From Halolamina sediminis (GTDB lineage Archaea; Halobacteriota; Halobacteria; Halobacteriales; Haloferacaceae), in contig NZ_CVUA01000001.1 of NCBI RefSeq assembly GCF_001282785.1, forward strand, positions 2,728,001-2,792,000: a stretch of 64,000 bases of DNA, given 5' to 3'. Below, one piece after another: positions 57,711 through 61,464 of the stretch. The stretch's first letter is position 1. Each line of letters begins with the position of its first letter. The notes beneath the pieces were generated by a model. It was not told where the DNA came from. It did no database searches and saw only the letters and a list, made by a program, of their open reading frames with translations. The position numbers were made by a program, and so were the translations under genes.

Positions 57711-59681
57711 TCAGAACTTCTCCAGCAGGTCCCGGTAGAACCCGTCATCGCTGTCGCCCGCGAGCTTCTCGACGATGAGTTCGGGGGTCGACCGCGCGAG
57801 GTGGTCTTTCTTCGGCGAGCGGTCGACGCGGAGCTCGCCGTCGACCAGCCCGACCGCTTCGATCCCGTCGACCGCCACCTCGAAGCTCGCCGCCTCCCGG
57901 ATGCCGTCGGCGAGGTGGGAGACGAACACGGCGCTTGCCCCCTGGTCGTGGAGCTCTTCGAGGATGCCGGCGATGATCTTCGCGGAGGCGCCGGGCTCGG
58001 TGATCGACTCCAGCTCGTCGACGAGCACGAGCCGACCGTCCGCGCCCTCCACGAGGTCGCCGAACTCCCGGAGCGTGCTCTCGAACGCGCCGGCGTCGAG
58101 GGTGCCCTGTGACTTGGCGTAGTAGTGCAGCTCCGAGACCTGCCCGACGCGGGCGTCCTCGGCGGGCACGGGCAGCCCCATGTGCGCGAGCACGACGAGC
58201 AGCCCGACGAGATCGAGCGTGGAGGTCTTGCCGCCGGAGTTCACCCCGGAGAGCAGCGTCACCCCCTCGACGCCGTAGTCGACGGGGTCGACCTCGTCGA
58301 ACGGCACGTCCAGTAACGGTGAGCGGCCGCCCTCGATCTCGAACCCCTCGCCGGCGATGGTGGGCATCGTGCAGTCGAAGTCGCGGGCGAACCGCGACAC
58401 CGCCAGCTCCACGTCGAGCTCCAGCGCCGCGTCGACCATCGACGCCACGGGCTCGCGGAGCGCCCGAAGTTCGGCCGCCAGTTCGGTCTCGAGCTGGTTC
58501 GCCCGACGATCCCGGTCGGCGGTCAGCTCGGTCCGGAGCCGGGAGACCGCCTCCTCGTTGTGTTCCAGCGGGAACGAGGGCTCGCCGCCGAAGATCCGCT
58601 CGACGAACTCCGCCTCGCCCGAATCGAGGTCGAGGCTCTCGACGACGTGCTCGCGGGCGAGTTCGACCGCCCGGTCGTAGTCGTCGGCCAGTTCGCGGGA
58701 GAGCAGCGAGTCGACCCGGGCGCCCTGCTCGACCAGCGAGAGGAAGTCGGTCCCCTCGATGGTCACGTCGCGCTCGCCGATAGCGTCCCGCAGGTGGTCG
58801 TTGCCGACCGACTCCGCGGTGCTCACGGCGGCGTCGAGGTCGTCGACCGCCACCGAGAGGCGATCGAGCTCCTCGTCGCCGACGATGCCGCCGTCCTCGT
58901 CGACGCGTTCGAGCGCCGCGCGCAGCGAGTCGAGGTCGCAGTCCGGCTCCGTGCCCGCGATCTCGTGGACCGCAGCGGCGGCGAGCAGCCGCTCGCGGTT
59001 GTCGGCGAAGAACGTGAGCGTCCGTTCGGGGACGAACTCCTCGGGGCGCTCCAGCGCGTCCGGGACGACGCGCACGTCGCCCTCCACGTCGATGCCGGCG
59101 AACTCCGCGTCGAGCACGTACACCGTCGAGTACGAGCGGCCGAGCTCGCCGAGTTCGCGGCGGTCGTCGATCACCTCGACGGGCAGTTCGGGCAGCGCCT
59201 CCTTCGCTTCGGCGTAGCGCTCGGCATCGGCCGTCGCGACACAACGCTCCCGGACCCGGATCCCCTCGGCGGGTTCGAGCGGTTCGACGCCGGCGAGTGC
59301 GTCGAGCAGTTCGGGGTCGGGGTCGCGCTCCATCGCCCGCGTCGCGAACGTGCGGACCTCCTCGATTCGGGACCGTTCGGTGCTGGGGAAAAAGGTCGCC
59401 AGCCGCTTCTCGCCGTACGTGGTAACCGCCCGTTCCTGTAGCAGGCCGAGCGCGTCGTCGTAGATCTCCCGCGCCCGGTCGGTGGCGAGGAAACCGCCGT
59501 CGTCGCCGTGTTCCCGACGGATGGCGCCGCGGGCGATCGCCGCGGCGCGGCCCTCGGAGATGTCCGGCGAGCGGGCGATCGCGGCCACGTCGCCGCGCCG
59601 GAGCGCGCCCTCGGCGTCGTCGAGTTTGGCCAGCGAGGCGGCCGTCTTCTCCCCCACCCCCGGGATGGCCGTGAACTCCAT
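57711..59681 (-). CDS. MutS-family ATPase with N-terminal HhH segment
   Basis: A 656-residue protein. It starts with a helix-hairpin-helix region (MEFTAIPGVGEKTAASLAKL). A core/clamp-like region follows (residues about 170-460, highly acidic). The MutS ATPase domain has Walker A LLSGVNSGGKTSTLDL near residue 475, and LVLVDELESITEPGA and AVFVSHLADGI follow. The mismatch-reading F-x-E motif of MutS1 and the Smr nuclease domain of bacterial MutS2 are both absent. It may therefore act in recombination or structure-specific DNA processing rather than mismatch repair. The start is the ATG at 59681. Confidence 0.88.
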   Translation of the reverse strand: MEFTAIPGVGEKTAASLAKLDDAEGALRRGDVAAIARSPDISEGRAAAIARGAIRREHGDDGGFLATDRAREIYDDALGLLQERAVTTYGEKRLATFFPSTERSRIEEVRTFATRAMERDPDPELLDALAGVEPLEPAEGIRVRERCVATADAERYAEAKEALPELPVEVIDDRRELGELGRSYSTVYVLDAEFAGIDVEGDVRVVPDALERPEEFVPERTLTFFADNRERLLAAAAVHEIAGTEPDCDLDSLRAALERVDEDGGIVGDEELDRLSVAVDDLDAAVSTAESVGNDHLRDAIGERDVTIEGTDFLSLVEQGARVDSLLSRELADDYDRAVELAREHVVESLDLDSGEAEFVERIFGGEPSFPLEHNEEAVSRLRTELTADRDRRANQLETELAAELRALREPVASMVDAALELDVELAVSRFARDFDCTMPTIAGEGFEIEGGRSPLLDVPFDEVDPVDYGVEGVTLLSGVNSGGKTSTLDLVGLLVVLAHMGLPVPAEDARVGQVSELHYYAKSQGTLDAGAFESTLREFGDLVEGADGRLVLVDELESITEPGASAKIIAGILEELHDQGASAVFVSHLADGIREAASFEVAVDGIEAVGLVDGELRVDRSPKKDHLARSTPELIVEKLAGDSDDGFYRDLLEKF

Positions 59682-59781
59682 TCGGCCCGGGGTTCCGCGC
59701 CATCGGGCAAAAGCGTGTGGTTCGGCGAGGGTCGCAAATCCCGGCGGTGTTAAGTGGTCTCCCGCCGTCCCTTCTGTCGAT

Positions 59782-60114
59782 ATGGGGGATCGACTCGTCC
59801 AGGCCGGAACCGTGTTCACCGGGTTCCTCGGCGTCGCGCTCGTCGTCTTCGGCGGCTACCGCGTCCGGTACGGGACCGGAACGGTGGAGGAGCTGCTGGC
59901 GCTGGCGTTCCTCGGCGTCGCGATCGTCGCGGGCTACCGGTCGCTGGCGATCCACTCCGGGCCGCGGATCAACGCCGTCAGCAACACCGCGCTGTTTCTC
60001 GGCGCCGCCGCGGCGTACGGCGGGGGTGTGAACCTCGGCGTCGACGCCGTCGCGACGGCGGGGCAGGCGCTGTTCGTGATCGCCGTCGCGTACTTCGTGG
60101 TCCGGCTGGACTGA
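59782..60114 (+). CDS. Small membrane protein, four predicted helices
   Basis: A 110-residue protein of unknown function. The hydrophobic segments are VFTGFLGVALVVFGGYRV, LLALAFLGVAIVAGY, VSNTALFLGAAAAYGGG and ALFVIAVAYFVVRLD. The ATG at 59782 is preceded by a short spacer and the convergent/divergent MutS gene. I do not recognise the family; similar short polytopic proteins are common in haloarchaea. Confidence 0.7.
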   Translation: MGDRLVQAGTVFTGFLGVALVVFGGYRVRYGTGTVEELLALAFLGVAIVAGYRSLAIHSGPRINAVSNTALFLGAAAAYGGGVNLGVDAVATAGQALFVIAVAYFVVRLD

Positions 60115-60150: not shown

Positions 60151-60603
60151 CTACTCCTCGATCCGGCGGAGCGTCGCCGCCACGTCGTCCGGCGTCGCGC
60201 CCGGGGCGTCCTCGACGCGGTGGTCGGGGACGAAGATCGGCACGGGGTTCGCCCGGAGCGCGGTCCTGACCGTCTGGGCGTCGTCCTCGTCGTCCGGGTT
60301 GAGGTTCGCCATGTGGGCGACCTGTCGCGTGTTGCCGACCTCGCCGTAGGGGATCTGACAGACCGCATCGAGCACCGCGCGCTGGTCTGTCGGCACGGTG
60401 ATCGCCGTCTCCACGTCCTCGAACGCGTCCTCGTCGCCGTCGAGGTAGTCGAACACGCGGTCCAGGATCGGGTGCTCTGGCTCGGCGTCGTCCGGGATGC
60501 GCTCCGGGAACGACGCGTCGATCACCTGACTGCTGGCCACCGCGATCTGGACCGGACGGCCGAGGACATCGGACTCCCGTGCGTAGATGCCGGCGTCTTC
60601 CAT
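60151..60603 (-). CDS. Alkyltransferase-like (MGMT-family) protein lacking the catalytic cysteine
   Basis: A 150-residue protein aligned with O6-alkylguanine-DNA alkyltransferases. AVCQIPYGEVGNTRQVAHMA corresponds to the helix-turn-helix with the arginine finger. TALRANPVPIFVPDHRV corresponds to the NPxPIxxPCHRV active-site strand. The catalytic Cys is Asp here (PDHR). Alkyltransferase-like (ATL) proteins with Trp or Ala at this position bind alkylated DNA without repairing it and recruit nucleotide excision repair. An Asp at this site is a departure even from those. The start at 60603 is the family start. Confidence 0.85.
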   Translation of the reverse strand: MEDAGIYARESDVLGRPVQIAVASSQVIDASFPERIPDDAEPEHPILDRVFDYLDGDEDAFEDVETAITVPTDQRAVLDAVCQIPYGEVGNTRQVAHMANLNPDDEDDAQTVRTALRANPVPIFVPDHRVEDAPGATPDDVAATLRRIEE

Positions 60604-60690
60604 CGCTCGAACGGAGGGGGCTCGCGGCCTTGAACCCGGCGGCAGCGCCGGGGACGGGCGACCGGGGTCGCAAGCCTTTTGAACAGTTCC

Positions 60691-60708
60691 GTACATTAGT
60701 GTACAAGT
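60691..60708. promoter_or_regulatory. Candidate TRP-box palindrome at the trpC start
   Basis: GTACA at 60691-60695 and TGTAC at 60700-60704 form a perfect inverted repeat around TTAG, extended to TGTACA at 60700-60705, three bases before the trpC ATG. TGTACA is the consensus half-site bound by the TrpY repressor in methanogens. The element would overlap the transcription start if the mRNA is leaderless. An AT-rich TTTTGAACA at about 60677-60685 is the likely TATA region. Whether haloarchaea use a TrpY-like protein is not known to me. Confidence 0.5.
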
Positions 60709-61464
60709 ATGAACAGCAACGAGGTGGCGCCCGCGGTGCGGTCGATCCTCGACGCCGCCCGCGAGCGCCCCGGCGGGGCCGAGCGCGTGGCCGTCGAGGA
60801 CGCGCGGTCGCTCCCGGCGGCGTTCGCGGCCGTCGAGGCCGAGGGGCGGACCCCCGTCGTCGCCGAGGTGAAGCCGACCAGCCCGACGACCGAGGGCGAG
60901 AGCGACGCCGACCCCGTCGAACTGGCCGAGGCGATGGTCGCCGGCGGCGCCGCCGCACTCTCGGTGCTCACCGAGCCCGACCACTTCGGCGGCTCGGTCG
61001 AGCACTACGAGCGCGTCCGCGAGGCCGTCGACGTACCCGTGCTGCGCAAGGATTTCCTGCTGGAGGAGTCGCAGTTGGATGCGGTCCCAGCGGACGTGGT
61101 GTTGCTGATCGCGCGGTTCCTAGGCGACGACCTCGCGCCGATGATCGAGGCGGCACGCGAACGCGGGATGCAGGTGCTCGTTGAGGTCCACAGCGAGGCA
61201 GAGGTCGAGCGTGCGGTCGCGGCCGGCGCGGAGATCGTCGGCGTCAACAACCGCGATCTGGCGGCGTTGGAAGTCGATCTCCGAACGTTCGAGGAGGTCG
61301 CGCCCGCGGTGCCCGAGGACGCGACGCTGCTCGCGGAGTCGGGGATCTCGACGCCCGCCGAGGCGCGGCGGATGCGTGAGGCGGGCGCGGACGGCCTGCT
61401 GATCGGCACCGCTATCATGGACGGCGACCCACGAGAGAACACGAGCGAGTTCGTCAACGCATGA
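60709..61464 (+). CDS. trpC: Indole-3-glycerol-phosphate synthase
   Basis: A 251-residue TIM-barrel enzyme. Motifs visible are [64 protein letters not shown]-type strand and [16 protein letters not shown]. It closes the indole ring of indole-3-glycerol phosphate. The stop overlaps the trpB ATG by four bases (ATGA), so the operon is translationally coupled. Confidence 0.95.

Follow-up and report, generated by a model that had tools for sequence, protein, structure and literature searches.

An AGT-fold protein of haloarchaea with aspartate in place of the acceptor cysteine, distinct from active alkyltransferases and from typical ATL proteins

The window analyzed here, a stretch of 64,000 nucleotides from Halolamina sediminis (contig NZ_CVUA01000001.1, positions 2,728,001 to 2,792,000 of the forward strand), encodes an AGT-fold protein that belongs neither to the active AGTs nor to the typical ATLs. 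We tentatively propose, giving the idea somewhat less than an even chance, that it is a retired haloarchaeal descendant of the ordinary archaeal Ogt which has been repurposed as a non-transferase binding or adaptor protein.

The gene occupies positions 60151–60603, as had been stated, albeit without a strand, in an earlier sequence-only reading. It is located on the minus strand, where the reading frame runs from 60603 down to 60154 and is followed by a stop codon, giving a protein of 150 amino acids that contains the motif NPVPIFVPDHRV and ends in RRIEE. The plus-strand translation of 60151–60603 is unrelated. The features referred to below are as follows.

60151–60603, minus strand: Cys-less AGT-family gene, 150 amino acids plus stop; PF01035 match, nearest solved chains are AGTs
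60394–60603, minus strand: N-terminal domain, residues 1–70; strands 5–11, 16–23 and 26–31 and helix 45–54 in the AlphaFold2 model
60253–60330, minus strand: helix-turn-helix (HTH) region, residues 92–117, as aligned to human AGT positions
60214–60249, minus strand: active-site motif NPVPIFVPDHRV, residues 119–130
60223–60225, minus strand: codon GAC for Asp127, where the acceptor Cys is expected; 121 of the 129 genomes read here have Asp
60157–60159, minus strand: Glu149, which stands for the Glu of the catalytic network; no exception among the 115 residues read
60604–60708, no strand: head-to-head intergenic region of 105 bp common to the gene and trpC, which starts at 60709 on the plus strand

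Glu149 corresponds to Glu172 of human AGT. Membership in the AGT family, as claimed in the sequence-only reading, is supported by a match of residues 74–135 to Pfam DNA_binding_1 (PF01035; E 2.1e-11, 43.9 bits, cut-off 27) and by a predicted AGT fold. The score against the NCBIfam model TIGR00589 (ogt), 32.2 bits, is below its cut-off of 46.4. A sequence comparison with solved chains places AGTs nearest, with a best E-value of 4.1e-4. Within its own genome, searched as one 2.84-Mb contig (97.87% complete), the gene is the sole PF01035 match at E ≤ 0.001.

For structure prediction, 116 proteins were filtered by length and redundancy to 94 rows, with the window protein placed first and one long orthologue (L061) removed by hand; the resulting AlphaFold2 model has a pLDDT of 96.3 and a pTM of 0.88. 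In the L061 protein, from genome G369, additional sequence separates the two domains, and the match falls into two separate pieces. Foldseek searches with the predicted model returned Ogt/AGT chains with E-values down to 5.0e-8. When the model was superposed by VIA-align, Mycobacterium tuberculosis Ogt (4wxd) gave a Z-score of 17.2 over 133 residues (rmsd 1.9), and several further Ogts reached Z-scores of about 17, aligning from residue 2–4 to residue 150. Schizosaccharomyces pombe Atl1 (3gva) aligned with residues 69–150 only (Z 9.1), and Vibrio parahaemolyticus 2kif, which we take to be an ATL, with residues 70–150 only (Z 8.2). Because the Ogts align over residues 3–150 and the ATLs with the C-domain only, the model predicts a whole two-domain AGT fold rather than the single domain of an ATL.

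The two-domain fold and the Asn/His/Arg/Glu framework are thus common to the protein and to the Ogts of M. tuberculosis (4wxd), Sulfolobus solfataricus (4zyd) and S. tokodaii (1wrj), as far as the predicted model goes for the fold. The differences from these Ogts are the Asp in place of Cys, a Tyr, a Lys and an Arg finger that are not kept, a shorter pocket loop, and an acidic loop in the HTH. The catalytic network of active AGTs is represented by its Asn, His and Glu, in 115 of 115 residues read at each position; the acceptor Cys, replaced by Asp127 in the motif NPVPIFVPDHRV as the sequence-only reading had noticed, is absent, and transfer of an alkyl group to a cysteine, also judged impossible there, is impossible for a protein of this sequence. 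With S. pombe Atl1 (3gva/3gx4) and 2kif the protein shares an AGT C-domain devoid of the acceptor Cys, and to this extent it is AGT-like in the manner of an ATL. However, the solved ATLs are single domains of 102–108 residues which presumably carry the Tyr and the Arg finger, compared with 150 residues and two predicted domains here. Ala is the alternative residue at the Cys position of ATLs. As described in a 2023 review (PMC10779285), ATLs have Trp at this site in most members, lack enzyme activity, are linked to excision repair, and occur in archaea as fusions with EndoV; its alignment, which includes the E. coli ATL, highlights the flipping Tyr and the Arg finger as conserved, and according to the alignment legend both are kept in ATLs. 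The protein from the window has Asp at the site and conserves neither residue. Neither Trp nor Ala at the site, nor a single domain of about 100 amino acids, nor, in the window protein, a retained Tyr and Arg finger was found, and the designation as an alkyltransferase-like protein is not supported for a full two-domain protein that is devoid of the flipping Tyr and of a conserved Arg finger.

A protein search of 391 genomes of the class gave a match in 390, with a best E-value of ≤ 8.3e-16 in each; the single genome without a match, G339, is 88% complete. Residue 127 was read in a sample picked to span 86 genus codes, at least two of which (g61 and g74) are without a read; 130 genomes were tried, one of which (G130) had no orthologue at the place fetched. 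Among the 129 genomes, the residue is Asp in 121, Ser in five, Cys in two and Thr in one, and Trp or Ala in none, so that the conservation of Asp in haloarchaeal homologues, which the sequence-only reading had suggested checking, is evident. Both Cys forms and two of the Ser forms belong to two early-branching families, f5 and f11. When these four basal genomes (G021, G217, G285, G382) are set aside, the remaining 125 comprise 121 with Asp, three with Ser, one with Thr and none with Cys. Asn119, His128, Arg129 and Glu149 are invariant, each in 115 of 115 residues read from 116 distinct proteins, one of which is cut short by a contig end. Comparison with four close relatives yielded dN/dS values (NG86) of 0.15–0.24. 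Given these sequences, neither chance nor a sequencing error can account for the missing Cys. Since the classical reaction has been lost and the protein has nevertheless been retained by selection, it probably has a different, non-classical job.

The orthologue group appears to be restricted to the class. A profile built from 94 orthologues and run against 294 genomes of the phylum, a sample which lacked family f11, gave E-values of ≤ 1.4e-45 in the 53 class members sampled and none lower than 2.1e-20 elsewhere in the phylum, and it is this gap that suggests the restriction within the 294-genome sample. All 20 sequences fetched from outside the class have PCHR, i.e., the Cys, and the 19 of them that were aligned all possess the Tyr, Arg finger, Lys and Glu of ordinary Ogts. 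A tree was calculated from 67 rows, namely 34 thinned orthologues, 14 canonical haloarchaeal Ogts (every second eligible one) and 19 of the 20 outgroup sequences (L181, also PCHR, was left out), with the trait column omitted. Support values are SH-aLRT from a quick search without bootstrap; many inner forks are not settled, and the root misplaces one outgroup row. All haloarchaeal orthologues cluster together (97), and within this cluster f5 and f11 (Cys, Cys, Ser, Ser) branch first (93) and are sister to the crown group (96); the second, PCHR-type haloarchaeal Ogt forms a separate clade (100). Overall, the tree requires six changes of the letter at residue 127. By its order, Cys is ancestral and Asp appeared close to the base of the crown group; the few Ser and Thr are either later changes or leftovers. 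On the evidence of the tree, the protein descends from the Ogts of the phylum, and the spread of residues, the tree and the dN/dS values together show an ordinary archaeal Ogt that lost its Cys close to where the main haloarchaeal radiation begins and has been kept since.

The change at residue 127 is accompanied by others, which were read by alignment to human AGT numbering. Tyr at the position equivalent to Tyr114 is found in none of 30 crown sequences, in all four basal ones, in 19/19 outgroup sequences and in 14/14 haloarchaeal PCHR Ogts; for Lys at the equivalent of Lys165 the respective counts are 0/30, 4/4, 19/19 and 12/14, one of the latter rows having a gap. The Arg finger is Arg in 7/30 crown, 0/4 basal, 19/19 outgroup and 1/14 PCHR Ogt sequences. 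Gly at the Gly131 equivalent is absent from the crown (Arg in 19 of 30) and from the basal forms (all Arg), and present in 19/19 outgroup and 14/14 PCHR Ogt sequences. The window protein has Thr92, Gln110 and Arg113 at the equivalents of Tyr114, the Arg finger and Gly131, respectively, and an acidic loop, DDEDD, precedes its recognition helix. Between PxHR and the last Glu, the crown proteins have a shorter pocket loop than either the basal forms or the Ogts. The basal orthologues of f5 and f11 (L045, L101, L102, L103) belong to the same orthologous group and have Gly5, Arg9 and the Arg at the Gly131 position, as does the crown; unlike the crown, they have kept Tyr, Lys and the longer pocket loop, and two of them have Cys at the site, the other two Ser. 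The alignment thus indicates that loss of Cys, Tyr, Lys and pocket loop marks the crown group. The changes in the DNA-inserting helix probably came first, because they are also found in the basal forms, all four of which retain Tyr and two of which retain Cys.

The mean net charge of the HTH is –5.3 in the crown (111 of 112 proteins, one not being parsed), –5.75 in the basal forms (n = 4), –1.5 in haloarchaeal PCHR Ogts (n = 30) and +3.6 in the outgroup. The acidity does not separate transferases from non-transferases, since the basal, Tyr-keeping forms are at –5.75; it was rejected as proof against DNA binding, because these four forms, of which two have Cys, are no less acidic than the crown. 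The N-domain is better conserved in this group than in the outgroup Ogts (mean column entropy 1.42 versus 2.16), and the C-domain equally well in both (1.34), in a comparison with 19 outgroup sequences from many families to which no sampling correction was applied. The residues conserved in the crown and not outside include Arg9, Pro33, His44 and Arg49.

Haloarchaea may also contain a second, canonical Ogt, a protein of about 130–150 amino acids with PCHR that belongs to the same family and occurs in the same cells, and yet falls into a separate clade. With the basal orthologues excluded, strong separate PF01035 matches (E ≤ 9.3e-17) were present in 39 of 101 genomes, and PCHR was found in 32 of the 32 such sequences read. 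Among the 62 genomes without a strong separate match, G339 has no match at all, and in G021 and G285 the orthologue itself has the Cys; the PF01035 search of the remaining 59 revealed no AGT-family protein beyond the Cys-less orthologue. Haloferax volcanii, a tractable laboratory organism, has a PF01035 match, which could be either of the two AGT-family genes. The canonical PCHR Ogts (L105–L124, L155–L164) keep Cys and Tyr, and have Val or Ile in place of the Arg finger in 13 of 14 rows. One of them, L119 from genome G053, shows an apparent frameshift: the character of its frame changes just past the active site.

The gene is arranged head-to-head with trpC (PF00218), which is followed by trpB and trpA, the latter two named by eye, and 105 bp separate the two divergent genes. 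This arrangement recurs in 68 of 90 sampled loci. Among the 89 loci that have an orthologue, trpC is adjacent in 66 with Asp and one with Ser, plus L095 (Asp), and was not found beside the gene in 14 loci with Asp, four with Ser, two with Cys and one with Thr. The other flank is conserved as well, with lonB in 53/89 and an Rce1-like membrane protein (protease) in 52/89 loci, also where trpC is absent; lonB is likewise near the gene in the basal loci L101 and L102, in opposite orientation. The 3' flank in the window differs, having instead of the lonB/Rce1-like arrangement a small membrane protein, which neighbors the gene in 2 of 90 loci. A protein with MutS domain V (PF00488, E 2.2e-8) is encoded nearby on the minus strand (57711–59819). 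One of the 90 sampled loci shows this arrangement too; another one has the MutS-domain protein on the other side. Since the block as a whole is conserved on both flanks, no function was drawn from the neighbours.

The promoter of trpC (60670–60708 in the window) appears strikingly well conserved across haloarchaeal families and contains a box resembling CTTATGTACA. The repeat TTARTGTACA lies directly 5' of the trpC start codon, and its version in the window is the near-palindrome GTACATTAGTGTAC. A loose two-site pattern was found in 58 of 68 loci and TGTACA in 55 of 68, counts for which there is no shuffled control. The element may be the operator of a tryptophan regulator. Its reading as an operator shared by trp genes was rejected. 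An inexact search of the own genome found, besides the trpC site, three other sites with two mismatches, compared with two matches of the reversed control; one of the three was inspected, and its ORFs do not look trp-like by eye.

What the protein does has to be considered against this background. We propose that it would act by binding rather than by chemistry. The invariant Asn-His-Arg-Glu framework, combined with Asp or a small hydroxyl residue and with a constrained N-domain, suggests a binding site of some kind: Asp127, His128, Glu149 and Asn119 may line a polar pocket that accommodates a ligand, nucleotide or side chain of a partner, and the surface of the N-domain may serve for docking of a partner. 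The framework could equally be compatible with catalysis. Canonical flipping of O6-alkylguanine is probably not performed, since the Tyr, the Arg finger and the pocket loop have each been altered; the missing Arg finger alone would be uninformative and was rejected as sole proof against DNA binding, because 13 of 14 haloarchaeal PCHR Ogts, which are presumably active, also lack the Arg. That the protein might instead mark lesions like an ATL, binding bases with O6-alkylation or other damage, leaving them unrepaired and recruiting nucleotide excision repair, in keeping with the different lesion or scaffold role in excision repair considered in the sequence-only reading, appears possible but rather doubtful. 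It would be in line with AGT ancestry and fold, and with the loss of Cys, as in ATLs. Furthermore, a strong separate Ogt is present in only 39 of 101 genomes, and there is none in the genome of the window, hence many haloarchaea may need another way of handling O6-alkylguanine; organisms that have only an ATL handle it another way, as mentioned in the review (PMC10779285). However, the flipping Tyr is lost, the Arg finger is not conserved, the pocket loop is shortened, the Gly131 equivalent is mostly Arg, an acidic loop precedes the recognition helix, there are two domains instead of one, and Trp or Ala at the site was seen in 0 of 129 genomes. A lesion-marking role is possible, yet nothing points to it specifically.

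The presence of Asp, His, Glu and Asn at the former reaction center, the last three of them invariant, might also suggest an enzyme in which Asp127 cooperates with His128 and Glu149, for instance by forming an alkyl ester that is subsequently hydrolyzed, so that the protein turns over. A nucleophilic acid, a His and a second acid are likewise found in haloalkane dehalogenases. Nevertheless, a carboxylate is a far weaker nucleophile than a thiolate, the Tyr and Lys which aid transfer in AGTs are gone, and the 4 of 125 crown genomes with Ser or Thr instead of Asp make it doubtful that a carboxylate is essential; we consider such an enzyme very unlikely. Its extension to a multi-turnover enzyme common to the whole class, which would hydrolyze an alkyl ester and use as substrate a free base, a nucleotide or a protein and not flipped duplex DNA, is highly improbable. 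Regulation of the tryptophan operon by binding of the HTH to the shared promoter region is suggested by the head-to-head position with trpCBA in 68 of 90 loci and by the conserved repeat element in the trpC promoter, and has a parallel in bacterial Ada, an AGT with a gene-regulatory role. Yet Asp is retained in the 14 sampled loci without adjacent trpC, the trpC element persists where the genes are more than 1 kb apart (L008, L011, L067), and the HTH is acidic. Besides, the syntenic lonB (53/89) and Rce1-like (52/89) genes on the other flank indicate that synteny is a property of the block, which is why we rate a trp regulator as unlikely; moreover, LrpA2 has been proposed as the regulator in Halobacterium salinarum, as stated in PMC4162585. 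That the gene is a mutated or decaying Ogt copy is scarcely conceivable. PCHR orthologues, the sign of a mutated copy according to the sequence-only reading, do occur, albeit confined to two early-branching families and to genomes from outside the class, and elsewhere Asp is found in 121 of 125 genomes, so that the objection does not apply. With matches in 390 of 391 genomes and dN/dS values of 0.15–0.24, decay is refuted as far as sequence allows.

Among the matches listed, the open-access literature contained nothing on a haloarchaeal group of the Asp type. The main texts of PMC10779285 and PMC7216122 have no word starting with "halo" or "PDHR", and the one word starting with "aspart" in the main text of the former refers to the Glu/Asp of the triad.

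Annotation as "methylated-DNA-cysteine methyltransferase" by family alone would credit haloarchaea with a repair reaction which is impossible for this protein. It is kept by nearly every sampled haloarchaeon, whereas a strong separate Ogt is present in only 39 of 101 genomes. The orthologues form a natural series, from forms with Cys and Tyr kept, via Ser, to Asp with Tyr, Lys and the loop lost, and this series lets one ask by which steps an AGT retires and to what other uses its fold can be put.
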